Source of the DNA: an uncultured Candidatus Saccharibacteria bacterium
Lineage (GTDB): Bacteria > Patescibacteriota > Saccharimonadia > Saccharimonadales > Saccharimonadaceae
Assembly: GCA_947302125.1 (NCBI GenBank)
Contig: CAMYUL010000004.1
Location: 29,507 to 93,506, forward strand
DNA: 64,000 bases
Direction: 5' to 3'
A model generated the notes under the pieces. The model was given only the letters and a program-made list of their open reading frames with translations. It had not been told where the DNA came from and made no database searches. The translations under genes and the position numbers were made by a program. Within the stretch, counting starts at the first letter, position 1. Every line of letters starts with the position of its first letter. Shown piece after piece: positions 10,097 through 44,478 of the stretch.

Positions 10097-12406
10097 ATGT
10101 CAAAAAATTTAGTCATCGTCGAGTCGCCTGCCAAGGCGAAAACTATTGAGAAGTATCTTGGGCAAGATTTCAAGGTTATGTCCTCTGTTGGACACGTCAG
10201 AAAAGATACCAAAGTTGACCCAGAAAATGACTTCGAGGTTACTTACGAAATCGACGCCGACCATAAGAAAATTGTAGAAGATCTAAAAAAAGCCGCCGCA
10301 AAATCCGACAAAATCTGGCTCGCTACCGATGAAGACCGCGAAGGAGAGTCAATTTCTTGGCACTTAATCGAGGTGCTTAACTTACCAAAAACCACCAGCC
10401 GCATCACTTTCCACGAAATCACCGAGCCAGCCCTAAAGGAAGCTATCAAAAACCCCCGCAAAGTCGACATGGACATGGTCTATAGCCAGCAAGCTAGACA
10501 GACCTTAGATATGCTCGTCGGTTATGATTTGTCTGGCGCAGTCCGCAAAAAAGTCCCTGGCGCCATCAGCGCCGGCCGTGTCCAGAGCCCAGCTTTAAGG
10601 CTCGTCGTTGAGAAAGAGCGCGAAATCGAAAAATTCGCCACCAGCTCTACTTATAAAGTTTCTGGCAAATTCAATAAGCAGGGCCTAAAAACCACTTTTG
10701 AAGCCGTACTAGACGGAGATAGCCCAGATACTAAGGACAAGGCAAAAAAGCTCTTAGAGAGCCTAAAAACCGCCAAATACAGCGTTTTAAGCACAAGCGA
10801 AACCGAGGCTTTGAAGGCCAATCCAGTGCCATTTGCTACTGCCGCACTTCAGATTGAAGCTAACGCCAAGCTCGGCTTTTCATCCAGCACCACTATGCGC
10901 GCCGCCCAGGGACTTTACCAGGCTGGTCACATCACCTACCACCGCACCGACTCGCTTAATCTCTCTACTCAGGCCTTAGCCAGCATCGCAAAATATATTG
11001 AGAAGAATTATGGCAAAGAATATCTCAAAGTCCGCCATTTCAAAACTAAATCCGCCGGCGCCCAGGAAGCCCACGAGGCCATCCGCCCAACCCACATTGA
11101 AACAGAGGTTGCAGGCGCCAATGATTACGAAAAACGCCTTTATAACCTTATTCGCACCCGCACTCTAGCCACTCAAATGGCTAACGCCAAGGTTAACCGC
11201 ACTACCGTCAAAATTGACACAAACAAGAAAGTCACCTTCACCGCTAAGGGCGAAGTAATTATCTTCGACGGCTTTCTTAAAGTCTATGGCAAGTCTAAAG
11301 AATTAGATCTACCAAAGTTAGCAAAAGGCGACGAGCTAGAATCACAGGAAATCACCGCTCGCGAGACCTTCGCCAAGCCGCCTGCTCGCTACACCGAAGG
11401 CTCTCTAGTTAAGAAGCTTGAAGAGCTCGGCATCGGCCGCCCATCCACTTATGCTTCCATTATGTCCGCCATCCAGGCCCGCGGCTACGTCATCAAGGGC
11501 GACTCCGAAGGTGAAGAGCGCGAAGTCACTGAATTTACGCTCAAAAACGCTAAGATTACCGAGGAAAAAGTCTCAGAAAAATCCGGCTCCACCAAGGGCA
11601 AACTCATTCCTACCCCTGTCGGCGAGCTAGTCTCCGATTTCCTGACTGATCATTTTAACGAAATTGTCGATTACGGATTTACCGCCGGCATCGAGGAAGA
11701 TCTTGATAAAATTGCCGAGAAAAAGCTTGAAAAGGTCAAGATGCTAAGAAGTTTCTACGGCCCATTCACTAAGCTTGTCAAAAATTCCGACGATGTTGCT
11801 CGTTATAATAATTCCACCTCTCTTGGCGTAGATCCAAAAACAGGGAAGAATATCTATGCCAAGATCGGCAAAAACGGCGGCTTCATTCAGCTTGGAGAAA
11901 ACGAGAAAGAATCCGGTGAGAAGCCACGCTTCGCCCCTCTACCGAAGGGCGCCACTGTCAAAACTGTCACTTTCGAGCAAGCCTTAAAACAACTTGCCCT
12001 TCCAGCTCTTCCGCGCAACCTCGGCACCGCCAAAGACGGCACAGAGATTATTGCCGCCGCCGGTCCTTTCGGTCCATATCTTAAATGCGGCAAATATAAT
12101 ATCCCAATTAAAGGTTATGACCCCTATAAGATTACCCTTAAGGATGCTGAACCTCTTTATAAGAAAAAAATTGACAGTATTATTGCCGACTGGGACGATA
12201 TTATGATTATTGTCGGCGCCTACGGCCCTTACGTCAAAGGCCCAGGTCGTCACAACAACGTCAAGATCCCTAAAGAAATTGATCCAAAGAAACTAACTAG
12301 AGCTCAAGCTGAAAAAATCTTAAAAGAAAAACCAAAATCCGCTCGTCATGCTCCTCATAAGAGGAAAAAGACCACTAAGAAGACGGCAAAAAAGAAGACT
12401 AAATAG
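10097..12406 (+). CDS. topA: DNA topoisomerase I
   Basis: LVIVESPAKAKTIEKYLG, DEDREGESISWHL, SAGRVQSPALRLVVEKE, ITYHRTDS; basic Lys-rich tail. Confidence 0.95.
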   Translation: MSKNLVIVESPAKAKTIEKYLGQDFKVMSSVGHVRKDTKVDPENDFEVTYEIDADHKKIVEDLKKAAAKSDKIWLATDEDREGESISWHLIEVLNLPKTTSRITFHEITEPALKEAIKNPRKVDMDMVYSQQARQTLDMLVGYDLSGAVRKKVPGAISAGRVQSPALRLVVEKEREIEKFATSSTYKVSGKFNKQGLKTTFEAVLDGDSPDTKDKAKKLLESLKTAKYSVLSTSETEALKANPVPFATAALQIEANAKLGFSSSTTMRAAQGLYQAGHITYHRTDSLNLSTQALASIAKYIEKNYGKEYLKVRHFKTKSAGAQEAHEAIRPTHIETEVAGANDYEKRLYNLIRTRTLATQMANAKVNRTTVKIDTNKKVTFTAKGEVIIFDGFLKVYGKSKELDLPKLAKGDELESQEITARETFAKPPARYTEGSLVKKLEELGIGRPSTYASIMSAIQARGYVIKGDSEGEEREVTEFTLKNAKITEEKVSEKSGSTKGKLIPTPVGELVSDFLTDHFNEIVDYGFTAGIEEDLDKIAEKKLEKVKMLRSFYGPFTKLVKNSDDVARYNNSTSLGVDPKTGKNIYAKIGKNGGFIQLGENEKESGEKPRFAPLPKGATVKTVTFEQALKQLALPALPRNLGTAKDGTEIIAAAGPFGPYLKCGKYNIPIKGYDPYKITLKDAEPLYKKKIDSIIADWDDIMIIVGAYGPYVKGPGRHNNVKIPKEIDPKKLTRAQAEKILKEKPKSARHAPHKRKKTTKKTAKKKTK

Positions 12407-12411
12407 CTATA

Positions 12412-12535
12412 AATAGCACCACTTACATAAAAAATCTAGTGCAAGGTGAATTGTCAAAATGACACTAAAGTTGTCATTTTGACTTCAATTCAGCCTTGAT
12501 ATGCACTAGAGTTTTTTATGTATCGTGGTGCTATT
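12412..12535. repeat. Long nested inverted repeat A1 (about 32-bp outer stem around a 53-bp core)
   Basis: AATAGCACCAC..ACATAAAAAA..CTAGTGCA pairs with TGCACTAG..TTTTTTATGT..GTGGTGCTATT; core IR GTCAAAATGACA/TGTCATTTTGAC. Confidence 0.92.
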
Positions 12536-12752
12536 CTTTGTTATTCTTCATTATTCTTGCCGCTTTTCACCGTTCTTATTTGCCATATTCCGCTTATTTT
12601 TGAACTTTTTCAAAATAAATTATTGACTATGTAAAAAATGTGGTACAATAGAACATAGAAAGTCAAAAAATATAAGTTGACATTTGCACAAAAATATGCT
12701 ATCATAAGCTAAATGAACAATATTAACTGAGGTGGAATAAAGGAAAATTTTC

Positions 12753-13784
12753 ATGGACCAAAATGCGGATGTGATCGCAAATGCGATCAAAGGCAGCCTA
12801 AAAATTATCGAACAAGACCGTGAAAGAGAAATTATCACGCGTCGTTTCGGGCTAAACGGGTCGAAAGAGACCCTTGAACAAATCGGCGAAATGTTATCTA
12901 TTACACGTGAACGTGTTCGCCAACTAGAAAAAGCTATTTTAATTAGACTTAAAGTTTGCTCCGAAGATGGACAAATCAAAGAGCTAGCCGCCGCTGAAAA
13001 GATTATCATCCGCAATCTTACAGAAATGGGCCGCATCGCTCGCGTTTCTTCCTTAGCCGACAAAATTTACGGCCATACCACCTCCGAAGAAGAACGTGCT
13101 GGTCTCAGCTTCCTTGGTAGCATCTCTGCAGCTCTTACTACTATTGATGAGAATGATCAATATTACGCCGCTATCGGTATTGCCGAATACGGTGACACCT
13201 CTAAGGTAAAATCCAAAGTTGACGAAATTGTTTCTGTTGTCAAAAAAGAGAAGAAGCCAGTCACTATTGATAATCTCGATGAGATGCTTGACTATGAGCA
13301 CCCTTCTCATATCGAAGCTGTCGCTTCTGTTTCCAAGCAGTTAGCTACCCTAAACGGCCTCTGGGGCCTTGCTAAATGGCCAACCGTTAATCCAAAGAAT
13401 ATTCGCGACAAGATCTTCGTAATCCTCGAGAGCAAGAAGGAGCCAATGCACTTCGCTGACATTGCTGCCGCTATCGAAAGCTCTGATTTTAAGAGAAAAA
13501 ATGTCACCGTCCAGGCTATTCATAATGAGCTTATTAAGGATGATCGCTTCGTGCTTATTGGCCGCGGCATCTACGCACTAGACAGCTGGGGCTACGCAAA
13601 GGGAACTGTATCTGATATTATCAAGGGCATCCTCGAAAAATCTGGTAAAGCTATGACCAGGGAAGAAATCGTCCGCGAAGTTCTTCACGCCCGCAAAGTC
13701 AAAGAAACTACTATCCTTCTCAACCTCCAAAACAAGAAATTCTTTGAAAAAGTCGGCAAAAACTCTTACAAACTTGCCAAATAA
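12753..13784 (+). CDS. Sigma-70 region-4-like HTH protein fused to HARE-HTH/RpoE-delta-like domain(s)
   Basis: ITRRFGLNGSKETLEQIGEMLSITRERVRQLEKAIL (sigma region 4); C-terminal MHFADIAAAI...VQAIHNELIKDDRFVLIGRGIYAL. Confidence 0.75.
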   Translation: MDQNADVIANAIKGSLKIIEQDREREIITRRFGLNGSKETLEQIGEMLSITRERVRQLEKAILIRLKVCSEDGQIKELAAAEKIIIRNLTEMGRIARVSSLADKIYGHTTSEEERAGLSFLGSISAALTTIDENDQYYAAIGIAEYGDTSKVKSKVDEIVSVVKKEKKPVTIDNLDEMLDYEHPSHIEAVASVSKQLATLNGLWGLAKWPTVNPKNIRDKIFVILESKKEPMHFADIAAAIESSDFKRKNVTVQAIHNELIKDDRFVLIGRGIYALDSWGYAKGTVSDIIKGILEKSGKAMTREEIVREVLHARKVKETTILLNLQNKKFFEKVGKNSYKLAK

Positions 13785-13851
13785 TTTTATCAGAAACTAA
13801 TTAGTGGGTTTCTTTTCCATAGATTTTATGCTAAAATGATTATGTAAGATT

Positions 13852-16599
13852 ATGCTAGCAGCAATCATTAACTTTATTTTAATGCCGATTGTCTGGGTGC
13901 CAATCGTTGGCGTCCTCGGTTTTTTAACCTATAAAAACTACAAGAAATTAAACAAGCTCAAGGTCTTGAATGTCGACAGCGTCCTCTTGATGCTCGAGAT
14001 TCCGCGCACTAATGATAAGAAGGAGTTGGCCGCTGAGCAACTTTTTGCTAGCCTTCACGGTATTTTGAGAGACAAGATTGAGCTCAAAAACTCCGACGGC
14101 GTGCAGGAGCACTTAAGTTTTGAAATCGTTTCTACTGGCGGGCAGATCCGCTTCTTCGTCTGGACACCAAAAGTCTTGCAGAGCTTTGTCGAGGGTCAAA
14201 TTTATGCTCAATATCCTACTGTCCAAATCTACAAAGTTAAAGAAGACTATGTCGACAAGCGCAAGGAACATCCAGTTTGTTACTCTTCGGAAATTACCTT
14301 AACTGAGAATGAAGTCTTACCAATTAAGACTTTCGAAAACTTCGAGGTCGACCCTCTAGCTGGTATTACTGGCACGCTCGCCAAGCTTGATCCAGACAAG
14401 AAAGAAGAACTCTGGATTCAGATCCTAATCCGCCCAATCCCTGACGACTGGCACAAATCCACTACTGATAAATGGGTAGAAAAAGTCAAATCTGGCCAAA
14501 AATCATTCAGACTTCTTGGTATTGATTGGATTTGGCTAATTACCGCCATTGGCGCACTCTTCCGCCCGCCAGAAGGGGGAACTGAAGCCCCTGTTAAGGT
14601 GGAACTTTCCGAACGTGCCAAGACTCAGGTAGAAAAAGCCGAGGAAAAAGCAACTAAGCTCGGCTACGAAGTTAAAATCCGTCTAGCCTACCTTGGCGAC
14701 GATCAAATGGACGCCAAACTTAATATGCAAGCCCTTGTTGGTACTTTTAAACAGTACAACTCTACTAACTTAAACGGCTTCAAGAGTGTTGGCGGCACTT
14801 TTGACAGTTCCGCGCTTGACGCCTATAAGTTACGCCAATTCAACGGTCACGGCTTTATTCTTAACATTTCTGAGCTCGCATCCGTTTATCACTTGCCACA
14901 CACTTCTGTGGAAACTCCTAATATTGTTTGGGCTACTTCCAAGACTGCTGAGCCTCCTGCACAGCTTCCTCTCATTACTGGCAACGCCGCTAGCGACGAA
15001 AATATTTCCGCTTTCGGTCTTACTAATTTCCGCGGCATCAATCATCAATTCGGCATGCTTCGCCGCGACCGTTCTCGTCACGTCTATATTATTGGCCAAA
15101 CCGGCGCCGGTAAATCTGGTATGCTCGAGCTCTTTGCCCTCTCTGATATTTTCTACGATCAGGGCTATTGCATTATCGATCCGCACGGTGACTTCGCGAT
15201 CAATAACCTCCGCTTTATCCCAGAAAAACGTATCAAAGACGTAGTTTACTTTAACCCGGCCGACACTCAATATCCAGTCGCCTTCAACCCTCTAGAGCTT
15301 TCCGACCCAGCCAGAAAACCAAATGTCACTTCTGAAGTTATCGGTGTGCTTAAACGTATGTTTGGCGATTCTTGGGGTCCACGCCTTGAGCATATCTTAC
15401 GTTATACCCTCTTAGCCCTCCTCGACCGCCCAGAGACGACTCTTCTCGATATTTCTCGCATGCTTACCGATAAGGATTTCCGCAAGGAGACCCTCGACTA
15501 TTGTAAAGATGTCACCGTCTTACAATTCTGGAAACACGAGTTCGGCCAGTGGAATGACAAGCAAGTTAATGAGTCTATCGCCCCTGTCCTTAACAAGGTC
15601 GGCGCCTTTACGGCTAACCCAATCATTAGAAATATCATCGGTCAACCAAAGTCTAGCTTCGACGTTCGTCGTATCATGGACGAAGGGAAGATCCTCGTCG
15701 TCAACCTCTCCAAGGGCCTCATTGGTGAAGATAACGCCGGTATCCTTGGCGCTTTCCTCGTTACTAAGGTTCAGCTTGCAGCCATGAGCCGCTCAGACAT
15801 TCCTGATGTCGCTGATCGCCGTCCATTCTATCTCTATGTCGATGAGTTCCAGAACTTTGCTACTGATTCCTTTGCCGTCATTCTCTCTGAGGCCCGCAAA
15901 TACGGCCTTAACCTCACCGTTGCTAACCAGTACATTTCTCAGATGACCGACACCGTCCGCGATGCCGTCTTTGGCAACGTCGGTACTACTATTTCTTTCC
16001 GCGTCTCCGCCGATGATGCCCCACTCCTCGTTAAGCAGTTTGAGCCTACCTTCGAAGCTCAAGACCTCTTGCAGATGAATAACCGCAACTTCGTTATCTC
16101 TATGATTATCAATGGCGAAAAGGTTCCAGCCTTCTCTGCTACCACCTTATCCATCCCTAATACTCCTAAGGACAACTTTGAGGCCATTGTCGCTTCCTCT
16201 CGTATGAAGTACTCTCGCCCACGCGCCGAAGTCGAAGCTGAGATTAAAGAGACTATTGAACAGTCCGAAAAGTATAAGAAGGAGCTTTCTGACTCTGGTC
16301 GCGAAGCTGGTTCCAGGGGTAATCCTGCTAATAAACAGGGGTCCACCCCTGTTAAAGAACAGGGAACTACGGTAGAAAAGAAGGGCTTCGCCTTTCAACC
16401 CTCTCCTAAGTCGGATTTCAAGAAATTAAAGCTTTCCCCAAACGCCGCCGAGAATAAAGAAAACCGCCCAAGCCTCAAAGATCTTGGCAAGCTAGTTGCT
16501 GAAAAACAATCGCCAGAAAAGGGAAATGATAAGAAACAGGGAAACGGCCCTAAGAAACAGGGAAATTACCCTAAGAATCACAAGAATCATCATCAATAA
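13852..16599 (+). CDS. VirD4/TraG-like type IV secretion/conjugation ATPase (DUF87-like)
   Basis: Walker A IIGQTGAGKSGMLEL, IIDPHGDFA, Walker B FYLYVDEFQNFATDSF; N-terminal membrane segment. Confidence 0.85.
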   Translation: MLAAIINFILMPIVWVPIVGVLGFLTYKNYKKLNKLKVLNVDSVLLMLEIPRTNDKKELAAEQLFASLHGILRDKIELKNSDGVQEHLSFEIVSTGGQIRFFVWTPKVLQSFVEGQIYAQYPTVQIYKVKEDYVDKRKEHPVCYSSEITLTENEVLPIKTFENFEVDPLAGITGTLAKLDPDKKEELWIQILIRPIPDDWHKSTTDKWVEKVKSGQKSFRLLGIDWIWLITAIGALFRPPEGGTEAPVKVELSERAKTQVEKAEEKATKLGYEVKIRLAYLGDDQMDAKLNMQALVGTFKQYNSTNLNGFKSVGGTFDSSALDAYKLRQFNGHGFILNISELASVYHLPHTSVETPNIVWATSKTAEPPAQLPLITGNAASDENISAFGLTNFRGINHQFGMLRRDRSRHVYIIGQTGAGKSGMLELFALSDIFYDQGYCIIDPHGDFAINNLRFIPEKRIKDVVYFNPADTQYPVAFNPLELSDPARKPNVTSEVIGVLKRMFGDSWGPRLEHILRYTLLALLDRPETTLLDISRMLTDKDFRKETLDYCKDVTVLQFWKHEFGQWNDKQVNESIAPVLNKVGAFTANPIIRNIIGQPKSSFDVRRIMDEGKILVVNLSKGLIGEDNAGILGAFLVTKVQLAAMSRSDIPDVADRRPFYLYVDEFQNFATDSFAVILSEARKYGLNLTVANQYISQMTDTVRDAVFGNVGTTISFRVSADDAPLLVKQFEPTFEAQDLLQMNNRNFVISMIINGEKVPAFSATTLSIPNTPKDNFEAIVASSRMKYSRPRAEVEAEIKETIEQSEKYKKELSDSGREAGSRGNPANKQGSTPVKEQGTTVEKKGFAFQPSPKSDFKKLKLSPNAAENKENRPSLKDLGKLVAEKQSPEKGNDKKQGNGPKKQGNYPKNHKNHHQ

Positions 16600-16618
16600 T
16601 TCCCCTTCTTACCTCTGT

Positions 16619-16644
16619 TAATTCCCCAAGAAATTGGGGAATTA
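16619..16644. terminator. Inverted repeat TAATTCCCC-N8-GGGGAATTA
   Basis: Directly downstream of the 13852 CDS. Confidence 0.5.
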
Positions 16645-16941
16645 TTAGTTCTCTACCCCTGTTTAACACCTATTCCACCCCTATTAACCAACCAACATCA
16701 TGGTTCTCTACCCCTGTTGCGCCCCAATACTACCCCTGTTACACCCCAATACCACCCCTATTTCTCCCCTGTTCCACCCCTGTTAAATCCTCACAAGGCC
16801 ACAGAAAGCGCCAGGACGCACGTTTTAGTTAAAACGACTACACATACGTCTACGGGCATTAAACGGCCTAGAATCGCACGAGAATGGGGAAATACACGAA
16901 AAGTAAGCATAAGCACCAACAAACCACAAAAAATCAGCCAT

Positions 16942-16969
16942 AAAAAGACGCATGGACAATCGTCTTTTT
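16942..16969. terminator. Hairpin AAAAAGACG-N10-CGTCTTTTT
   Basis: Inverted repeat with T-run. Confidence 0.5.
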
Positions 16970-17115
16970 GCGATAGTTTTAATGTCGCACAATGTATATT
17001 TTACGACATTAACAAAGCCGCCACCTATATATATGCCAATGCCTAAAACAGCCCATAGTCCTGGGGGAAAGACTATATATTGTCTCCTATATTGCCTTTA
17101 AATTTAACTATTTAC

Positions 17116-17241
17116 ATATGACAATTTCTTTTCGAAACGGATAAATTTACTGAGGTCACGGCGCGAGTACGCGTCTTGAGCCGCGCCGCAGCGCCGCCTG
17201 ACCGAAGTAGATTTATCCGCCTTGAGAAAAGCTTGTCATAT
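17116..17241. repeat. Long nested inverted repeat D
   Basis: ATATGACAA..CTTTTC..CGGATAAATTTACT..GGTCA pairs with TGACC..AGTAGATTTATCCG..GAGAAAAG..TTGTCATAT; GC-rich inner hairpin. Confidence 0.88.
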
Positions 17242-17510
17242 TAAATGCGTTAAATTTAGAGGCATTTTCCAGGACTTTTCCACAGCTAAACCCCGCCACC
17301 CCTGTTATCTCAAATTTTTCACGCGCAAAAATTTTTATTTGACATTTCCCTCTTTTATTTCCCTATTTCCCTTTTTCCCTGTTAATTTTGCCAAAATCAG
17401 TCAAAATCCAGTGTAATTTCCTACTCGCATTACCCCTCTGTTTCCCTTCCCGAACAAAAACCGAACACAGGAAACTACCACTGAAATAACAGAGGTGGAC
17501 CCCTGTTATT

Positions 17511-18056
17511 TTACTTATAATACCCTTTTTCCTTCACTCTCACATCTATATACTGAGGATGAATATCTTTCTCAGTCACGTATTTAATCATCCTTGAGGC
17601 ATCTTCAGCCGACACCGCAGTACCCCTGTCCATATTTAGCTTTACGTAGTAATCATATCCGTCAAGAAATACATCAATCTCACGGTTCTTTCCAGCTGGC
17701 ACCACCGCTCGATTAACTGTATAGCCAATATCCTTAAAATCACCCTCGATTATTCCTACGAATTCCTTCATCCTAGAAGTAATCCCTACGTGTCCCTCGT
17801 CAATAATCTCTACTGTTGGGACAATTGCTGTCGCAGCTTTTTCCGCTTTTTCCCTGTTTTCCGACCAAATCGACACCTCCACCACAATCACCGTCGCAAT
17901 AATACCAAGCACCGCCACTAGGGAAAGCACCTTTACAATTTTCTTAGCTTTCTCACGTTTACGTGCCTGCAATCGTTCGGACTCGCTCTCTTGCCTCTCC
18001 CATTCCTGGGCGATCGTCCGGCCTACACGCATAGTGCCTTTATTTTTTCTCGACAT
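17511..18056 (-). CDS. Single-pass membrane protein at the FtsQ position of the dcw cluster (FtsQ/DivIB-like by position only)
   Basis: ORF downstream of murG, start at MSRKNKG; TM VLSLVAVLGIIATVIVV. Confidence 0.6.
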   Translation of the reverse strand: MSRKNKGTMRVGRTIAQEWERQESESERLQARKREKAKKIVKVLSLVAVLGIIATVIVVEVSIWSENREKAEKAATAIVPTVEIIDEGHVGITSRMKEFVGIIEGDFKDIGYTVNRAVVPAGKNREIDVFLDGYDYYVKLNMDRGTAVSAEDASRMIKYVTEKDIHPQYIDVRVKEKGYYK

Positions 18057-19344
18057 CTTTCCCACCTTTATCAGGATCGGACTTCGGCTCAGCCTCCTCG
18101 GCCGTCTCAATCTCGCCAAGATTGCCATCTGCAATCTTTAATAGAATATCTGCTAAATCTTTTGCAGCCTTTGGCTTATATGTTTCATGCAATTTACTCG
18201 CCAAGTCCGCACGCACTCTTGGGCTACGCACTAATTTCTGCGTTAGTTCTAATAATATCCCCGGCTGCTGCACCATCCTATCGTCGCCAATCATCTCTAC
18301 TGCCCCCATTTCCATGAGTTTTTCCGCGTTCTTCATTTGATGACCGCCAGGCAATTTTTCAAACGGTACTAATATTACAGCCTTAGAAAGCGCTGCAAGC
18401 TCAGCAATAGTTGTCGCCCCCGCGCGAGAAATCACCACGTCGGCCGCCCCCATCAATTCATCCATTGTCGAGTTAAAAGCCCACATCCTAAAATCAGAAG
18501 CCAGCTTTGCTTTATCCCAGTTCTCATATTTCTTCAAATCCACCATTTCCTCATAGCGCTCTCTGCCAGCTACTAATCCTACACTTGTAAACTTTAGCAT
18601 TTCCGGCAAAATCTCACGCATCGCTTCGTTCATATGTTGAGCACCCTGACTACCGCCGGTCATTACCACAAGCGGCCGATCCTCAGAAAAACCAAAAGCT
18701 TTCTTCAGTGCCGCCTGACGCGAAGCGGAGACCTTCTTAAACTCCGGCGCCACTGGTACGCCCGTAATCACTACATTCTTATTTGCTCCATTATAAAATT
18801 CTGAGACGCAAATCACCTTAGCATGCTTCATTAGAATACGATTAGCCAACCCCGGCACTGCATCCGACTCGTGCACCACATAAGGAACCCTCAAGAATCT
18901 CGCCACAAGCCCAACCGGCAGCCCTACAAAGCCACCTTTCAAAAATACCACGTCTGGTCGCGATTTGCGCGAAAGCATCCTAAAGAATGACTGCAAAATC
19001 CCACCGACAAATCCGATGAACCCGCAAATATTTCCCCATACAAGGTCATGCATTGTGGTCCCAAAATTCTTAAAATAATCTACGAATTTCCATCCAGCAT
19101 ACCGATGAAACTTACCAGACGACACTTTGCGTACCTGAATATACGGACGCTTACCGGAAACACGTGACTCCTCACCCCAAGACACGCCAATCTCCGTCGT
19201 AATCTTTACGACGTTTTTATAATACTTGCGATCCGTCCAAAACTCTACGCGAGTCCTCGGACGTTCTGCTAAAATTTCACGCACTACGGCGACGGCCGGG
19301 GTTATATGACCCCCTGAGCCCCCGCCCACTACTAATACTTTCAT
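18040..19344 (-). CDS. murG: UDP-GlcNAc:lipid II transferase MurG
   Basis: VVGGGSGGHITPAVAV, VVMTGGSQGAQHMNEA, DVVISRAGATTIAELAAL, LPGGHQMKNAE. Confidence 0.95.
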   Translation of the reverse strand: MKVLVVGGGSGGHITPAVAVVREILAERPRTRVEFWTDRKYYKNVVKITTEIGVSWGEESRVSGKRPYIQVRKVSSGKFHRYAGWKFVDYFKNFGTTMHDLVWGNICGFIGFVGGILQSFFRMLSRKSRPDVVFLKGGFVGLPVGLVARFLRVPYVVHESDAVPGLANRILMKHAKVICVSEFYNGANKNVVITGVPVAPEFKKVSASRQAALKKAFGFSEDRPLVVMTGGSQGAQHMNEAMREILPEMLKFTSVGLVAGRERYEEMVDLKKYENWDKAKLASDFRMWAFNSTMDELMGAADVVISRAGATTIAELAALSKAVILVPFEKLPGGHQMKNAEKLMEMGAVEMIGDDRMVQQPGILLELTQKLVRSPRVRADLASKLHETYKPKAAKDLADILLKIADGNLGEIETAEEAEPKSDPDKGGKDVEKK

Positions 19345-20482
19345 TATTTACCTCTCTTCCAGTATAACACGAAAGTTGACAAACTAAGCCAAGTGACACT
19401 GCGACAAACAACATACTTGTCCCACCATAGGATAGAAGCGGCAAAGTAATACCAGTAAGTGGCACCAACCCTGTCATTGCCGCAATGTTTATAATTGTCT
19501 GCGTCGCTATCCAAGCAAAAACTCCGACCGTTACGAGACTCTTCTCTGTCTCTAGTTTTGCTGATACTTTCAAAATTCGAGATAAAAGCAAGAAAAATAC
19601 TGCGATGATAGCGAATAATCCTACAAATCCGAAGGTTTCTCCCATCACTGCAAATACCGAGTCATTAATTGACTCCGGCAAGTACCCAGTCGCCTGTACA
19701 CTATTCCCTATTCCCACACCAAGCAAGCCGCCAGTACCAATTGCCATTTTTGCATTGTCAATATGATATGTCTCGTCCGAACTTCCCTGTCCAGAAAAAG
19801 TCATCATTCTCTCTAGGCGGTGCGGCGAAGATAAAATTGCAAACAACCCACCGGCCGCTACTACCGCCACCGCCACTAAGAAATAATTCAATCGAATTCC
19901 GCTCATAAATAATATCCCCAGGACAATTGCTACCATCACGATACCGGTACCCAAATCTTTTTGTGCAATTACCACAAAACCAAGCGCTATTATCGATACA
20001 ATCGCAAACGGCTGCAAAAAATCTCGTGTTTCCAACTTGTGCTCCGCCTTATAGCGCGCTACAAGCTGCGCTAGATATAGTACCAGCCCCAACTTCAAAA
20101 GTTCCGCCGGCTGGAACGTTGTTACACCAAGGTTAATCCACCTACAACCACCCAGCTCACAGACCGCAAGTGAAGAGTGAATTGCTGAAGCCAGGAACAA
20201 TATCGCACAAGCCACGAGTCCGGTTACCATGATCCATTTTGAATACTCGCGTAGTTTCTCATATGGAATCTTAAATGCCGCAAAAAATCCAATCACCGCA
20301 AGTATTACCGACTTTAGCTGCGAGATAAAGAAATAGTTAGTTGCAAGTTTCTTGTCGTCAGGAAGTGTAGCGTTCATAAAATTTACCCTCTGTGGGCCAA
20401 TTGCAAAAATCACAATCAAACCTATCGCTAGTAGGACAAAGGTTAATATTGTAATTATTCTGTCACTTTTATGTTTTCGCAC
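19277..20482 (-). CDS. ftsW: Cell division protein FtsW (SEDS)
   Basis: Multi-pass; GCRWINLG, FQPAELLKLGLVLYLA, LPLLSYGGTSML. Confidence 0.92.
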   Translation of the reverse strand: MRKHKSDRIITILTFVLLAIGLIVIFAIGPQRVNFMNATLPDDKKLATNYFFISQLKSVILAVIGFFAAFKIPYEKLREYSKWIMVTGLVACAILFLASAIHSSLAVCELGGCRWINLGVTTFQPAELLKLGLVLYLAQLVARYKAEHKLETRDFLQPFAIVSIIALGFVVIAQKDLGTGIVMVAIVLGILFMSGIRLNYFLVAVAVVAAGGLFAILSSPHRLERMMTFSGQGSSDETYHIDNAKMAIGTGGLLGVGIGNSVQATGYLPESINDSVFAVMGETFGFVGLFAIIAVFFLLLSRILKVSAKLETEKSLVTVGVFAWIATQTIINIAAMTGLVPLTGITLPLLSYGGTSMLFVAVSLGLVCQLSCYTGREVNNESISSGRGLRGSYNPGRRRSA

Positions 20483-20504
20483 CTAACTAACCTCCAAATT
20501 TGTT

Positions 20505-21536
20505 CTAGGCGATTCCCCCTGCTGCCGCAATAAAGACGCCCACTAGTGCTAAGACTCCGGCAATTACCCAAAATCTCATTACGATCTTAGCCTCACCCCA
20601 GCCCTTTGCCTCTAAGTGATGGTGAATTGGAGCAGAAATAAATAATTTGCGCTTGAAAACTTTTTTCCAAATCATCTGAAGAAGTGACGAACCAGCTTCC
20701 ACTACTAGTAGCCCGCCGATAATCGGTAGCAAGAAGAACGAGTTGGTCATCATTGCTACTACACCAAGCCCAGCGCCAAGTGCAAATGAACCCACATCTC
20801 CCATCATAAATCTTGCCGGTGGCACATTAAACCAAACATAGGAAAGCAACCAGCCGACCACTGTTAGACAAAAGCCGACTAGCATCCACTGACCCTGAAG
20901 GAGTGCAATAATTCCAAAAGCACCATAAGCAATCATACATAACCCACCAGCTAGACCATCAAGTCCATCAGAGATATTTACCGCATTAGAAGTTGCCACT
21001 ACGGCAAACGCAAACACTGCAATCATTAACATTTCCGGAAGGATCCATTCGCCAACAAACGGAATATGAATCGAGCTCCACCCGAGCTTCACTGCAAAGA
21101 ACCAGCCAAGCACGATTCCTACCGCCGTAATCATCGTAAATTTTACCGGCGCGCGCAAACCTGCTGCCCCATGCCCGTCGCCAAAGACATTAATCATATC
21201 ATCAATTAGCCCTACAATGGAGCCACCCAAAAACCCAAACAGCGGCAACCAGGTTTGGCCCCTATCCCAGTTGCAGATGTATGTCACTAGTCCAACTGTT
21301 ACTACGCCTACAATCCCCGCCATTGTTGGAAAGACTCTCTTGAATTTATGCGCATGAAGCTTTGTCATTACCGGAAGAGCTTTGCCGTCAATCGCTGTCT
21401 TTTTTTGCTTTTTCCAGAATTTATACTTATACGCAAAGTGTGTATAAATTGGCGTCAAAAACATCGCTAGAAGAAATGCGCCCAGCGCCAAAACTAACCC
21501 ATAAAACATCTCGTCACTTATTTTGATGCTAAGCAT
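20505..21536 (-). CDS. mraY: Phospho-MurNAc-pentapeptide transferase
   Basis: KTAIDGKALPVMTK, VGLIDDMINV, NAVNISDGLDGLAGG, PIHHHLEAKGW. Confidence 0.95.
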   Translation of the reverse strand: MLSIKISDEMFYGLVLALGAFLLAMFLTPIYTHFAYKYKFWKKQKKTAIDGKALPVMTKLHAHKFKRVFPTMAGIVGVVTVGLVTYICNWDRGQTWLPLFGFLGGSIVGLIDDMINVFGDGHGAAGLRAPVKFTMITAVGIVLGWFFAVKLGWSSIHIPFVGEWILPEMLMIAVFAFAVVATSNAVNISDGLDGLAGGLCMIAYGAFGIIALLQGQWMLVGFCLTVVGWLLSYVWFNVPPARFMMGDVGSFALGAGLGVVAMMTNSFFLLPIIGGLLVVEAGSSLLQMIWKKVFKRKLFISAPIHHHLEAKGWGEAKIVMRFWVIAGVLALVGVFIAAAGGIA

Positions 21537-23269
21537 TAATCATTTCCTCCTGGTTTTATTTTTAAATAATCGATCATATACGTACTCATTTTATCAAATA
21601 TCGGCATCGCGTCCCTTTCCCCCTCCATCTTGACGCCGTCCCCCCATATCTTTACCATTATAACATATTCTGGGGTATCCTGGGTAGCCCCACCAAACCC
21701 AACGTAGTTACCGATCGTCTCGTCAAATGTATATGCACCGTCCTTAATTCCCTGCGAAGTACCAGTCTTGCCACCAATGTAATATCCCGGCTTATCAACA
21801 CCAGTTGTTCGCTTGTATGACCTTACATTGTATAACATTTCTCGCATTGTCTTAGAAGTCGACGAAGAGATTGTTTGTCTAATCGACTCTGGAGCTTGCA
21901 GATAGTTAAACGTCCCGTTTGGCAAAACTTCGCCAGCCACCACGGTTGGACGGAAATATTCGCCACCATTAATCACGCTAGAAAACGCCGCCGCAAGCTG
22001 CATCATTGTAATATTCATACCCTGACCAAATGTCATATTCGCATACCTAGAATTGTAAGCATCCTCAGCATCTGGTTTTGTAATATAACCCTTAGCTTCC
22101 ACTAGCTCAATATCCGTATATTCGCCAAATCCAAATTTATCATGATAATATTCATACAGTCTATCTTTCCCTTTTTGCGTAATCTGCGAAGCATCATCGC
22201 CAAGCAGCATTAACGCTGTCATCGACGAGGTATTGAGCGAGTAGTCTAAGCCAGTCTGCATTGTAATTGTACCTAGCTGCCCCTTATAGGCGTTCTCAAT
22301 TTTCCAGTTATCGACCATCAAATAGCCTTTATTGTCATAAGTTGTTGCTGGCGACATTTTCCCTTGGTCAATTGCCGCCGAGAACGAGAAAGTCTTGCAC
22401 ATCGAGCCTGGCTCATATGCACTCTCAAGTGGTACGTTTACAAACACCGAGGCGTCCTCAACTTCATTATATTTTGTCGCATCATACGTCGGGACATTCG
22501 CTAATGCCCAGATTTCCCCAGTCATCGGATCCATCACAATCCCCGCTGCATTAGTCGCCGCCGAATGTTCTACCGCATCCGACAAGATTTGCTCCATCTT
22601 ACTCTGGATATTGCGGTCAATCGATAATACGACATTTTTACCATCCTTCGCCGGAATACGCACGTTGTCATCGCCAATTGAAAGTGCCACATTATTTACA
22701 TCTGTCACAGTCTTCAAAATACCGTCCTCTCCAGCCAGGTCCTTATCTAGCGCTTGTTCTACACCATATTGGCCATCACCATCATTATTCACGAATCCGA
22801 GCAGTGACGAGGCTAGTTGCCCCTCTGGATAAACCCGCGCATTTCCCTCCTTATAATATACGCCTACTAGATTCGCCGTCCGGATCTTCTGCACGGCGTC
22901 CCGTTTTACTCCACGCGCCACTATATAATACCTTCTCGTCTTGTCGGCAAATACATCCTTCCACTCAGCTACCACCTTATCACCAGCTATCTCACTAATC
23001 AGTCTCTCTGTTTCTTTCGGATCAGCAATCATCGGGTCTACGATAATTGTCCAAACCGCCTCATTCATCACTACCACAGTCGGCTCATCGCCGTCCATCA
23101 TATAAATTTCTCCACGTTCCGCCGGCACCGTATATTGCACTACGTGCTCCTGCTCCGCCCTTTTCACCCAGGCATCGTGCTCAAAAATCTGAATCATAAA
23201 AAGCCGCACCAAAACTAGTGCGACCGCTGCCACCAAAATAATTCGAAGCGCCTTTACGCGTTTTTCCAT
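21536..23269 (-). CDS. ftsI: Penicillin-binding protein 2/FtsI transpeptidase
   Basis: YEPGSMCKTFSF (SxxK), SLNTS (SxN), GGKTGTSQ (KTGT). Confidence 0.93.
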   Translation of the reverse strand: MEKRVKALRIILVAAVALVLVRLFMIQIFEHDAWVKRAEQEHVVQYTVPAERGEIYMMDGDEPTVVVMNEAVWTIIVDPMIADPKETERLISEIAGDKVVAEWKDVFADKTRRYYIVARGVKRDAVQKIRTANLVGVYYKEGNARVYPEGQLASSLLGFVNNDGDGQYGVEQALDKDLAGEDGILKTVTDVNNVALSIGDDNVRIPAKDGKNVVLSIDRNIQSKMEQILSDAVEHSAATNAAGIVMDPMTGEIWALANVPTYDATKYNEVEDASVFVNVPLESAYEPGSMCKTFSFSAAIDQGKMSPATTYDNKGYLMVDNWKIENAYKGQLGTITMQTGLDYSLNTSSMTALMLLGDDASQITQKGKDRLYEYYHDKFGFGEYTDIELVEAKGYITKPDAEDAYNSRYANMTFGQGMNITMMQLAAAFSSVINGGEYFRPTVVAGEVLPNGTFNYLQAPESIRQTISSSTSKTMREMLYNVRSYKRTTGVDKPGYYIGGKTGTSQGIKDGAYTFDETIGNYVGFGGATQDTPEYVIMVKIWGDGVKMEGERDAMPIFDKMSTYMIDYLKIKPGGND

Positions 23270-23288
23270 GCTTCTATTTTATCACAGT

Positions 23289-23633
23289 TTATTCATTAGC
23301 ATAACCAGAAACTTGTCCATCTGGCATATTCACAGCAACTTCTGACGTCTCCGCCGCAGCGACAGATGTCAGTCTCGCTTTTTCTACGGCTAGATCTTCT
23401 TTCCTAGCCTGAAGATCAGAAATCTCATTTTCAATATTCGAAAGTTCATAATCATACGTCGTAGCCTTTACGCCTTGAGTCGCATAAATCAATCCAACAA
23501 TCAGTACCATCAAGCCAAAAATCGCAGTTAAACTCATATTTCCCAGACGTCTAGTCGTATGTCTAACCGTGTTTTGATTGCGAGACCAAGAATTTGTCAT
23601 CATTCCTCGCCTTGATACATATTCGTTTCGCAT
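23289..23633 (-). CDS. FtsL-like septum protein
   Basis: Short single-TM coiled-coil ORF upstream of ftsI. Confidence 0.6.
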   Translation of the reverse strand: MRNEYVSRRGMMTNSWSRNQNTVRHTTRRLGNMSLTAIFGLMVLIVGLIYATQGVKATTYDYELSNIENEISDLQARKEDLAVEKARLTSVAAAETSEVAVNMPDGQVSGYANE

Positions 23634-23694
23634 TATTCCCTTTCGATTTTTGTTTTTCGTTTTTAATAATTCAAAATAATTCGAGCCTATGTGT

Positions 23695-23876
23695 TTATCT
23701 ATAATCCTAAGACCGGGGTGATCACTCCCCGCAGAGCTATAAGTGCTGAAAGCTCCGCCCCGGGAAGGTCATATATTATATAAACACCTACCAGGCTCTA
23801 CAACCTGGTGGAGGTTTCCCTCCATGTTGCCCGGCGGAAAAGTTCAAAACTAAACCGCTACGGGCTGACTACTTTC
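23695..23876 (-). ncRNA. Multi-hairpin structured RNA between rsmH/sORF and ftsL
   Basis: Minus strand: GCCCG..GCGG..CCGC..GGGC; GGAGG-GAAA-CCTCC; ACCAGG..CCTGGT; GTGTTTAT..ATAAACAC enclosing further GC stems. Confidence 0.55.
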
Positions 23877-23942
23877 TTAGCGAAAGTTAACTTTGATTTT
23901 CTGTGCACGAGATTTATTCATGACAGTGATTTGACGTGGCAT
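23877..23942 (-). CDS. Small ORF, 21 aa: MPRQITVMNKSRAQKIKVNFR
   Basis: AAAGGAGG Shine-Dalgarno 6-7 nt before ATG; located between rsmH and ftsL. Confidence 0.55.
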   Translation of the reverse strand: MPRQITVMNKSRAQKIKVNFR

Positions 23943-23965
23943 ATTTTGCCTCCTTTGTTTTATTT

Positions 23966-24847
23966 TTATTTTTTATTTTTAACAACCACGCGAAGTTTTG
24001 CACTCCTCGCACGTGGGTTGTTAACTAACTCCAACTTCTCCGCCACAATTGGCTTTTTGTTAATTAATTTAAGCTCGCTCTCCTCGCCGAGGCTTGAAGC
24101 TCCTTTAAAATAATCTTTTACCAACCGATCTTCTAGACTATGGAAAGTAATAATCGCAAGTCTTCCACCGGGCTTCAAAAGCTTCGGTAGAATCGGCAGC
24201 GTCTTTTCGATTAATGACAACTCGTCGTTAACTACGATCCTAATCGCCTGAAACACCTTAGTCGCCGGATGAATCCTTGACTTTGCTGTTTCTTTTGCAA
24301 TTGCATTAGCTAGCTCAGTTGTTGTCTTAAACGGCCGAGACAGCCTAATGATCTTTGCTACCTTCCGCGAGAACCCCGGGCTCATCTCTCCATACTTTTC
24401 AAAAATCTCGACTAGTTCCCTCTCGCTCCATTTATTCACGATATCAGCCGCAGTCATTTCCTGCCGCCTATCCATACGCATATCGAGAGGTCCATCGTTC
24501 AAAAAAGAGAAACCACGATCCCCTTGATCTAGTTGCGGAGAAGATACCCCAAAATCAGCGAGAATCATATCGTAAGTTTCTCCACACTGTAAACACTGTA
24601 GCGCCGCACTGTAAAAGTCCATATGCAGAATCTCAATCGGTTCACTTTCGTACTTCCCTTTTAAGATCTTTACCGCATAATCGTCTCGATCAACTAATGT
24701 CGAGCTTTTATAGTTCCGCGTTACATCCAAAATCGCACCTGCATGTCCCGCATAGCCCGCAGTAAGATCCAAATATGAATCTCCTAGCTTAGGGGATAAG
24801 CATTGCAAAACTTCCGATAATAACACTGGTTTGTGGTATTCTTCCAT
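23966..24847 (-). CDS. rsmH: 16S rRNA (cytosine1402-N4)-methyltransferase
   Basis: YHKPVLLSEVLQCL, YLDLTAGYAGHAGAIL, DFGVSSPQLDQGDRGFSF. Confidence 0.95.
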   Translation of the reverse strand: MEEYHKPVLLSEVLQCLSPKLGDSYLDLTAGYAGHAGAILDVTRNYKSSTLVDRDDYAVKILKGKYESEPIEILHMDFYSAALQCLQCGETYDMILADFGVSSPQLDQGDRGFSFLNDGPLDMRMDRRQEMTAADIVNKWSERELVEIFEKYGEMSPGFSRKVAKIIRLSRPFKTTTELANAIAKETAKSRIHPATKVFQAIRIVVNDELSLIEKTLPILPKLLKPGGRLAIITFHSLEDRLVKDYFKGASSLGEESELKLINKKPIVAEKLELVNNPRARSAKLRVVVKNKK

Positions 24848-24883
24848 TACTTATATTATATCACTACAATATAAGGTTTCAGT

Positions 24884-25111
24884 AGTTTGAGGGTGGTCAA
24901 CTAGAAATTTTCGCGGGTTTGTTTTGGTTCAATTTTTATTTAAGTTGCCACATAATCTTCACCACGAAGCGAGTTCGTAGTCGTTGAGAGCTTAATGTGT
25001 CATTGGTTGTTCATTAGAGTTAATTGGGAGGTGTTTAGAAGAAGAACTAACGGTTTTGATTTCGCGTATCCTAAACGCGCACAAAAACTCCTAGTTGACC
25101 AACCTCAAACT
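24884..25111. repeat. Long inverted-repeat element C (21-bp outer stem, 1 mismatch, about 186-nt interior)
   Basis: AGTTTGAGGGTGGTCAACTAG / CTAGTTGACCAACCTCAAACT followed by TTTTTT. Confidence 0.9.
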
Positions 25112-25285
25112 TTTTTAATGTACTTTTTTGCTGTGGATGTTTTTGTTTTGTGTTCCACTTGACCTTAGTTTAGCACAGCTTATGCTAAAAAGTCAAGGCC
25201 ATTTTTGGCCATTTTTCTACATTTTTAGTTTTCCACCACCCCTGTGGAAAACCATTGTTGACAATTCCCTTTCGATATTTTACAA

Positions 25286-25310
25286 AAACCGAACAAGCCG
25301 TGTTCGGTTT
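25286..25310. repeat. Hairpin AAACCGAACA-agccg-TGTTCGGTTT
   Basis: Perfect 10-bp inverted repeat upstream of ppa. Confidence 0.7.
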
Positions 25311-25373
25311 CTACATTTTGTTCGGAAATACCCTTATGTATGATATAATATATAAAACTAAAAGGAGTAAATA

Positions 25374-25901
25374 ATGGCAGATTTTAATAAAATCCTAGAC
25401 CCAGGAGACTATGAGAACGGTGAGATTAACGTCGTAGTCGAGATTCCTACCGGATCTAATCATAAGATCGAATGGGATAGAAAGAACGCTTGTTTCATGC
25501 TTGACCGTATCGAGCCAATTGCTTTCGCAAAACCTTGCAACTATGGCTTTATTCCTCAGACATTAGATGAGGACGGCGACGAACTCGATGTTCTTCTGAT
25601 TACTGATCAACCTCTTACTACCGGCATCTACACTAAGGCTCGCGTTCTTGGTGTTATGAAGTTTGTAGATGATGGCGAAGTCGACGATAAGATTATTGCC
25701 GTCCCTGCTGACGACCGCAACAACGGAGATGCTTACCAGTCTCTAGAAGACCTCCCTAAGCGTCTTATCGAGCAAATTGAGTTCCACTTCGACCACTACA
25801 AAGACCTCAAGAAACCAGGTACTACCAAGGTTGAAAAGTTTGCTGGCCTAGACGAAGCTAAGACCGTCATCAAAGACGCCATCGCTCGCTGGACCGCCTA
25901 A
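25374..25901 (+). CDS. ppa: Inorganic pyrophosphatase
   Basis: VVEIPTGSNHKIEWD, NYGFIPQTLDEDGDELDVLL; SD AAAGGAG. Confidence 0.95.
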   Translation: MADFNKILDPGDYENGEINVVVEIPTGSNHKIEWDRKNACFMLDRIEPIAFAKPCNYGFIPQTLDEDGDELDVLLITDQPLTTGIYTKARVLGVMKFVDDGEVDDKIIAVPADDRNNGDAYQSLEDLPKRLIEQIEFHFDHYKDLKKPGTTKVEKFAGLDEAKTVIKDAIARWTA

Positions 25902-25935
25902 TCCTACACCATTCTTCAAGAAGCGTATTCTTTAA

Positions 25936-26052
25936 GAAGCATAGTAAATAAAAAAGTCTGTACATAGAGAGGCTGAATTGAAGTCAAAATGACAACTTTA
26001 GTGTCATTTTGACAATTCACCTCAGTACAGACTTTTTTATTTACTATGCTTC
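25936..26052. repeat. Long nested inverted repeat A2 (perfect 28-bp outer stem around a 53-bp core)
   Basis: GAAGCATAGTAAATAAAAAAGTCTGTAC / exact reverse complement; core identical to A1 in opposite orientation. Confidence 0.95.
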
Positions 26053-26058
26053 CCTATT

Positions 26059-27381
26059 CTACAGCTCTTCAGGCTTAACTCTTACCTGTTTCGCTGTATC
26101 ACGATCACGCACCGTCACCGTGCCATCTTCTAGGGTGTCAAAGTCGATTACAACGCACTTTGGCGTACCAATTTCGTCCTGTTTGCGATACCTCTTTCCG
26201 ATATTGCCAGAATCGTCCCATGTGACATTGCCATACTTAGCACGCAAATCACGATAAACTTCCTGTGCCTTAGCCACTAACTCAGGCTTGTTCTTAAGTA
26301 GCGGTGATACACAAAATTTATACGGAGCTAATAATTCTGGTAGTCGCAGCACCACGCGCGTCGAACCATCAACCTCATCCTCAGCATATGCTGCCGACAG
26401 CACGGCTAGCATCAAGCGCTCCACACCGATCGAAGGCTCAATTACGTGTGGCACAAACACCTCGCCGGTATTCTTATCACGGTACTCCATGCTCTTGCCA
26501 GACTCACGTGCGATATTAGTAAGATCGAAGTCTGTTCTATAAGCCAACCCCATCAGTTCTTCTCTACCGTTTGGATAGTCAAACTCAATATCTACAGTAC
26601 GCTTAGAATAGTGTGCCCTATCTTCTGGTGCTACTTCTTCTTCGTGGATAGCATCAGCCGGAAGTCCGATCACGTTTTCTAGAAAATCATGCTGCGCTTT
26701 AAGCATCTTCTCAAAATTCTCTTCCCAAGTTGTCGGTTCCACAAAATACTCGATCTCCATCTGTGAGCATTCGCGGTCACGCAAGATATAATCACGTGGA
26801 GAAATCTCGTTCCTAAATGCTTTTCCTTGCTGAGCTAAACCAAATGGTAAAGACGGATAAATCGTGTCTACTACATTCTTATAGTTAGTGAAGATGCCCT
26901 GCGCAGTTTCTGGGCGAAGATAAGCAATCGACTTATCGTCAGACACTGGCCCGACGTGCGTAGAAAACATCATATTAAACTTACGAATCTCGCCCCAATC
27001 ACTCTTACCACAAGTTGGGCATTTCGCACCAGTTGCTAAGAATTCTTCCGTAGTTACTGATTCAGATAGACCATCAGCCAATTTGTCTGCCCTAAACCTA
27101 CCGTGACAGGATTTACACTCTACGAGCGGATCATTAAAAGTATCGACATGTCCAGAAGCTACCCAAGTTCTTGGGTTCATCAAAATCGCTGCGTCCACTC
27201 CATATATGTCCTCACGATCTTCTACAAAATACTTCCACCAAGCGTCCATGATCTTGCGTTTCAAAGACACGCCAAGTGGCCCAAAATCCCAAGTACCAGC
27301 CATACCGCCGTACACTTCTGATCCTGGGAAAATAAATCCCCTACGTTTACATAAGCTTACAATGTCTTCTGTTTTACTCAT
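26059..27381 (-). CDS. glyS: Glycyl-tRNA synthetase (class II alpha2 type)
   Basis: MSKTEDIVSLCKRRGFIFPGSEVYGGMAGTWDFGPLG, RPETAQGIFTNYKNV, IEPSIGVERLMLAVL; start at 27381 after TATAAT. Confidence 0.95.
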   Translation of the reverse strand: MSKTEDIVSLCKRRGFIFPGSEVYGGMAGTWDFGPLGVSLKRKIMDAWWKYFVEDREDIYGVDAAILMNPRTWVASGHVDTFNDPLVECKSCHGRFRADKLADGLSESVTTEEFLATGAKCPTCGKSDWGEIRKFNMMFSTHVGPVSDDKSIAYLRPETAQGIFTNYKNVVDTIYPSLPFGLAQQGKAFRNEISPRDYILRDRECSQMEIEYFVEPTTWEENFEKMLKAQHDFLENVIGLPADAIHEEEVAPEDRAHYSKRTVDIEFDYPNGREELMGLAYRTDFDLTNIARESGKSMEYRDKNTGEVFVPHVIEPSIGVERLMLAVLSAAYAEDEVDGSTRVVLRLPELLAPYKFCVSPLLKNKPELVAKAQEVYRDLRAKYGNVTWDDSGNIGKRYRKQDEIGTPKCVVIDFDTLEDGTVTVRDRDTAKQVRVKPEEL

Positions 27382-27398
27382 ACCCCCATTATACCACA

Positions 27399-28076
27399 TT
27401 ATATCTGAGAAAGCGCCCGCGCAATATACAAGATCTCAGAAAGGTCAAAACTACCAGCCTTTACCTTCAGGGCCAATGGCAATTTAGCCGTTAGCATCAG
27501 CCTCAGCATCTTGATCTCATTCGTAGAAATCTTGCCATTAGGATTCTTAACAAGGGCCCGCTCCAAAGTATCCCAACTATATTTTTCTCCTACCACCAGC
27601 TTCTCGCCATCAGTATCCATATATAAGTTTACTTGTTCACCGGAAATCCTCAGTAGATTCAAATAAAACCATGTTGTCACTATTTCAATGTCAGCACCGT
27701 CATTTAGCGCCTCAAAGCATTGCGTAAGCATCGAAAAATACTCTGGACTATCTACCGCTTCTGCCGCTTTAGACACTCGTTTTAGCATCTCCGCCGCCGT
27801 CTCCATTCGTGTATAATCAGTCAACAAGTTCTTAAAAAATTTATTCATCTTAGCCGAAGTCAATATCGCAAACTCACTCTTGCCTTGATGTACCACGATG
27901 TCTGATAGGCAAAACATCTCTATCCCTCCAGCCAGTCTCGACTTTTCCTTTCGAACTGCCTTAGCCATCACCGCCATTTTCCCTTGTGGAGTCAGAATAT
28001 TTAGGATCCGGTCTGCTTCACCATAGTTGGTGCGCCTCAATACAATTGCCTGCGTCTTTAAATCTTGTCCAGACAT
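27399..28076 (-). CDS. recO: DNA repair protein RecO
   Basis: QAIVLRRTNYGEADRILNILTPQGKMAVMAKAVRKEKSRLAGGIEMF. Confidence 0.9.
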   Translation of the reverse strand: MSGQDLKTQAIVLRRTNYGEADRILNILTPQGKMAVMAKAVRKEKSRLAGGIEMFCLSDIVVHQGKSEFAILTSAKMNKFFKNLLTDYTRMETAAEMLKRVSKAAEAVDSPEYFSMLTQCFEALNDGADIEIVTTWFYLNLLRISGEQVNLYMDTDGEKLVVGEKYSWDTLERALVKNPNGKISTNEIKMLRLMLTAKLPLALKVKAGSFDLSEILYIARALSQI

Positions 28077-44326: not shown

Positions 44327-44478
44327 AAAAATAACTAGGAAATGCAGGCTTTAGACTCTATAACCCAATCAGATTTGAAGAAAAAAACGTATATTCCTGA
44401 CGCGAGCGAAGCGAGCCAGGGTATGACATTTTTTTCTTCAAGTCCTAGAGTCTAAAGCCTGCATGACTAGTTATTTTT
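44327..44478. repeat. Long nested inverted repeat B
   Basis: AAAAATAACTAG-gaa-ATGCAGGCTTTAGACTCTA / TAGAGTCTAAAGCCTGCAT-ga-CTAGTTATTTTT; inner TTGAAGAAAAAAA/TTTTTTTCTTCAA. Confidence 0.95.

Follow-up and report, generated by a model that had tools for sequence, protein, structure and literature searches.

Long hairpins with a shared core and locus-specific arms as probable copies of a small mobile element in a Saccharibacteria genome

Two long hairpins, D and E, in a 64,000-nucleotide stretch of DNA (the window) from an uncultured Candidatus Saccharibacteria bacterium are probably copies of a small (~50-120 bp) non-coding mobile hairpin, here called F1, with outer arms that are largely host flanking sequence and its inverted copy. 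This and related Saccharibacteria harbour several families of such elements, F1 among them. As an earlier note on this DNA had claimed, positions 12444-12496 and 25970-26022 are exact reverse complements of each other, and a 21-mer probe of this core gave no matches by chance in 100 shuffles. In copy D, the core lies on the minus strand (element orientation GGCTGAATT..AATTCACC) within a complete hairpin at 12412-12535, which starts 6 nt past the stop codon of the upstream host gene topA (DNA topoisomerase I, 10097-12406, plus strand) and has outer arms at 12412-12443 and 12497-12535. The gene after topA (12753-13784) combines sigma-70 region 4 and HARE-HTH domains, an unusual pairing. In copy E, the core lies on the plus strand within a complete hairpin at 25936-26052, between the convergent genes ppa (inorganic pyrophosphatase, 25374-25901, plus strand) on the left and a class II aminoacyl-tRNA synthetase gene, probably glyS (26059-27399, minus strand), on the right. 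The outer stems are as previously described, ~32 bp in D, where small internal loops interrupt it, and a perfect 28 bp in E (25936-25963 and 26025-26052, with an A-tract/T-tract). The description of these stems as unrelated holds for their outer parts, whereas the inner parts (the A-tract and ..GTGCA) are recognisably related among copies. Whichever strand is folded, the predicted energy of the full hairpins is ~-61 to -63 kcal/mol. Elsewhere in the window, the motif CCCCTGTT is repeated in tandem at 16648-16785, and ACCCCTGTTA is dispersed in this genome and its relatives (15 copies, compared to 1 for the reversed control).

The genome assembly is fragmented (673,495 bases in 13 contigs, 88.6% complete), and its gene calls are mechanical open reading frames. 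The F1 core is present at 12 loci in it, identical or nearly so. The earlier note had named occurrence at two places only, with no empty sites in relatives, or an assembly duplication, as what would speak against its observation; the number of loci and their different flanks exclude two places only and an assembly duplication, and the 12 loci and reciprocal empty sites in a sister species support its reading of a tiny copied module. A phage or plasmid origin was rejected since database comparison gave no match. The common form of the 12 cores is GGCTGAAT..AGTCAARATGACA-loop-TGTCATYTTGAC..ATTCACC, from which one copy departs by a G-to-A change in its last stem. The core folds as an imperfect hairpin, with two conserved interruptions: a bulge of 1 nt (C) and one of 3 nt, which reads ATA in two copies and GAA in the others. 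Outside the core, arms beginning AAATTAGCC / AAATTAGCCGT are common to six copies, arms beginning AGTTTAATAG / AGTTTAATAGTTTAT are common to two, and the outer sequence is peculiar to each of D, E and the copies at C1 and C7. All F1 copies are intergenic, and none is in frame in a gene. Half copies adjoin the copies at C1, C2, C3 and C11, and these duplicated half arms beside full copies suggest slippage or the insertion of one copy into another. Three-armed or nested F1 structures were seen at C1:83580-83788, C3:37363-37542, C3:58042-58206 and C2:66195-66474.

The F1 core was absent from all 59 relatives in a first set and present in 2 of 174 genomes of the genus, this one and that of a sister species with ~80% identity. 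Outside this genome it was found on a single contig, from Candidatus Saccharibacteria RGIG5788 (sheep ileum), which appears to be the same-genus genome G151, and there it lies within unrelated arms. The contig is syntenic with this genome around its F1 copy, with a DNA identity of 71-83%. The sister's copy is a hairpin of ~130 nt between convergent genes; at the orthologous site here (GCCAGATAATTTACTGC), two convergent stop codons lie 1 nt apart and the hairpin is absent. The right arm of the sister's copy holds the last codons and the stop codon of the right-hand gene, and its left arm is an inverted copy of the right. Conversely, by match coordinates only, the flanks of copy D (window positions 12371 and 12587) are 6 nt apart in G151 compared to 215 nt here, and the topA copy is missing from the sister. 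By the same comparison, the flanks of the E site are 185 nt apart in G151 and 171 nt apart here, and the F1 core was not found at that site, which suggests that something else of similar size lies there. No syntenic match to C3:20001-40000 was found in G151, which is 77% complete. The empty sites which the earlier note had asked for in relatives are therefore present in both directions, and the F1 positions are species-specific in both genomes. Since these genomes represent species rather than strains, with one genome per species, the insertion events are old and the differences could include deletions.

In a census of the genome, 41 hairpins had a score of at least 18, compared to none in three shuffled genomes, and 32 of them fall into four families of 12, 7, 7 and 6 copies. 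The four families have a common plan of a conserved head and locus-specific outer arms of ~20-36 bp. Within the window, elements of this architecture are also found at 17093-17264 (census family 4) and at 44327-44478 (census family 2), the latter 28 nt upstream of a tRNA synthetase gene of the isoleucyl/valyl type. Outside all four families, a 28-bp inverted repeat with a 172-nt spacer lies just upstream of the ppa region (24884-25111). At all 20 loci of families 2-4, no arm of the family matched better than the partner arm from the same locus, ties included, and median arm scores were 24-27 for own-locus pairs compared to ~6 between loci. In family 3, arms reach 27-36 bp and are perfect or contain few mismatches. 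Many of the outer arms extend over the end of a gene, including its last codons and stop codon, and some perfect arms of 27-34 bp span stop codons. When placement was judged by open reading frames of at least 100 amino acids, 17 of 31 copies lay between co-directional, 11 between convergent and 3 between divergent genes, while the corresponding numbers for all gene pairs were 409, 72 and 70; convergent sites are thus in excess (13% of gene pairs, P ~0.001). In one or more of the three divergent cases, a conserved gene of 75 amino acids lies in between.

Hairpins recur across the genus at the 3' end of ppa, where E lies. Other species have there either a simple terminator or a long hairpin, whose family may be unrelated or related, and 10 of 30 loci score at least 18. 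The ppa hairpins of five same-genus relatives were multicopy in their own genomes in all five cases, and the outer arms of these families differ between loci where loci were read. Hairpin load varies, from 10 hairpins scoring at least 20 in the 731 kb of G027 to 12 in 280 kb of G033. Some heads are shared between species, since the head of census family 3 (GGACTT.. / AAATCTGGTCTAAATCTCATTA) recurs in G027 and G090, and the core from G005 recurs in G033 and G088. In two relatives, copies lie in frame inside conserved genes, namely TypA/BipA, TatD, ValS and Der in G121, and YchF, RecX, TlyA and CysS in G005; the YchF copy is a clean 42-residue insert compared to two orthologues. The TatD, TlyA and RsmD-like genes of this genome also contain hairpins, which belong to none of the four families.

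These loci bear on which of the two arms was there first. One arm encodes the conserved GE region in RluB of G005, the HPDEA motif in this genome's TatD, and the conserved RE tail in a transporter-like gene at C11:6589. In all three, the arm past the element is the inverted copy. The orthologues in G027 and G033 have no such hairpins at the ends examined. Taken together, these results show that the elements are dispersed, that empty sites exist, that the outer arms are specific to their loci, and that at several loci one arm is ancestral and the other is extra. It is mainly because one arm is conserved coding sequence that we prefer inverted copying of the host flank over insertion of the module into the loops of existing terminators or other hairpins, with the outer stem as the old stem. 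The latter explanation, which we consider unlikely, would fit the finding that the joined flanks of E form a plausible terminator (AAAAAAGTCTGTAC-loop-GTACAGACTTTTTT), the simple terminator at the ppa end in relatives, and the elements nested in older copies at C2:66195-66474 and C11. However, neither hairpin nor terminator is present in this genome at the site orthologous to the sister's F1 copy, in-frame copies sit where a terminator is impossible, and perfect arms of 27-34 bp across stop codons exceed the length of an ordinary terminator. The proposal that the module lands in terminator loops thus fails as a general rule, since several arms are inverted gene ends rather than old stems and some of the relatives' elements lie inside coding sequence. 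Both D and E have a stem with a T-tract, and a terminator scan limited to loops of 3-8 gave none.

We also considered whether the hairpins are a functional RNA (for 3'-end processing, stability or termination) with a conserved head, in which selection keeps the stems paired. In an alignment of ten distinct F1 sequences, both sides had changed in 12 of 35 pairs, whereas none of 500 shuffles scored as high and slid controls gave at most 4; copy E, which is displaced by one column in this alignment, weighs against the structure. This covariation supports the earlier suggestion of a conserved head with compensating locus-specific stems, and the internal-loop heads conserved across species and the excess of copies between convergent genes also agree with an RNA function. 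In contrast, 10 of the 14 outer-helix pairs had changed on both sides compared to 2 of the 21 core pairs, and inverted copying alone, with no need for selection, would give outer-helix covariation of this kind. Pairing is maintained in the core as well, by selection or by template switching, as its two double changes show. In addition, the heads and positions are species-specific, in-frame copies occur in unrelated proteins, and no Rfam family matched above its gathering score (only tRNAs matched in the window). An RNA function as the explanation of these hairpins is thus improbable.

Next to the two hairpins there is no transposase, as had been stated previously. The search for an IS200/605-like helper which the earlier note had suggested came out negative: no Y1 enzyme was found in this genome (88.6% complete), and 3 of 99 genomes of the genus have one. 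Accordingly, the Y1 (TnpA_REP) tyrosine transposase that marks REP/REPIN elements with RAYT was not found in this genome. A reverse transcriptase was rejected as a helper because it is absent here, though 14 of 22 tested genomes of the genus have one. These reverse transcriptase genes (~390 amino acids) were found in 1 of 14 other genomes of the order; their neighbourhoods look like diversity-generating retroelements, and the loci that were read (L213, L214, L217 and L218) carry no such hairpins. Neither a helper enzyme nor an excised form of the element was found. F1 resembles a MITE in being a short, non-coding, dispersed unit with terminal inverted repeats, and the six copies that are alike over ~120 bp including the arms, like the two other copies with common arms, indicate that those arms travel with the element, which counts against host-copied arms at these loci. 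F1 and the other families might thus be ordinary MITE- or REP-like repeats with outer arms that are diverged subfamily terminal inverted repeats, moved by an unseen transposase that could be missed in an incomplete genome. This is very unlikely, since direct target duplications of at least 5 bp, a further mark of MITEs, were seen at one of 32 copies, which is chance level, the Y1 enzyme is as rare as described above, and the arms of families 2-4 match only at their own locus, with some matching host coding ends.

On the preferred reading, each copy consists of a conserved head with fixed bulges, followed by outer arms of ~20-36 bp that the element itself largely does not carry: one of them was already present as host sequence, and the other is an inverted copy of it. 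For the origin of this arrangement we propose the following route. At the target, a DNA hairpin would be attached to the end of a strand, either by joining or by copying, and its free 3' end would fold back and prime the synthesis of ~20-36 nt along the host flank. Joining of the extended end to the far side would then yield the order flank, element, inverted flank. On this reading, copies are gained at gene 3' ends in this genome, whereas other families also gain them in frame within genes. Mismatched spacers between the core stem and the outer arms in some copies are not expected from uninterrupted fold-back synthesis, and the arms could have arisen after insertion. SbcCD is a nuclease that attacks long hairpins, and SbcD is part of it. 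SbcD was not found above the cut-off in any of 36 genomes of the order, including this one, while 13 of 14 control genomes responded; long hairpins could thus persist, and the absence of SbcCD may help copies to do so. D, E and other copies that have a T-tract and lie at gene ends probably double as two-way terminators. Later fold-back template switching would keep the arms paired, and template switching is documented to create and maintain hairpins (PMC8794818). We suggest only tentatively that these elements form a class that inserts with an inverted, not direct, 20-36 bp copy of its target by hairpin joining and self-primed synthesis, at gene ends or in frame in essential genes, and without a classical transposase.

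Several known systems share some of these properties. As summarized in the portions of PMC10969869 used here, Rickettsia palindromic elements (Ogata 2000, 2002) comprise several dispersed hairpin families of ~100-150 bp, as found here, and insert in frame into conserved genes, as seen here in two related genomes; other families do so in relatives and in this genome, whereas F1 does not. The Rickettsia elements belong to another phylum, F1 is intergenic, and host-copied outer arms are unmentioned for the Rickettsia elements in those portions. In-frame coding palindromes are called unique to Rickettsia, going by the title of Ogata 2002 (cited in PMC10969869). The REP/BIME, ERIC and BOX/RUP/SPRITE repeats (PMC2267715, PMC10969869) are likewise small dispersed hairpins, mostly intergenic, some terminator-like and some inserting into each other; in contrast to them, the present elements have no RAYT/Y1 partner, low copy number and locus-specific outer stems. 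Locus-specific perfect inverted repeats in coding sequence are known as the mitochondrial coding palindromes of Nematomorpha (PMC6649704), for which template switching was proposed as origin and upkeep, and as template-switch hairpins (PMC8794818). No shared repeated head is described for these, whereas here a conserved mobile core lies inside locus-specific arms. In the literature searched, which lacked most subscription journals, no paper was found that describes elements of this kind in Saccharibacteria or Patescibacteria, and an inverted target site duplication was found for a fungal case only.

Although repeats are expected to be purged from small, streamlined genomes, this genus has several families of long hairpins, some of them inside essential genes. 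If outer arms are indeed made by inverted copying of the host flank, this would amount to a new insertion signature, and these genomes would offer a natural setting in which to test whether hairpins, terminators and new protein segments arise by fold-back template switching.
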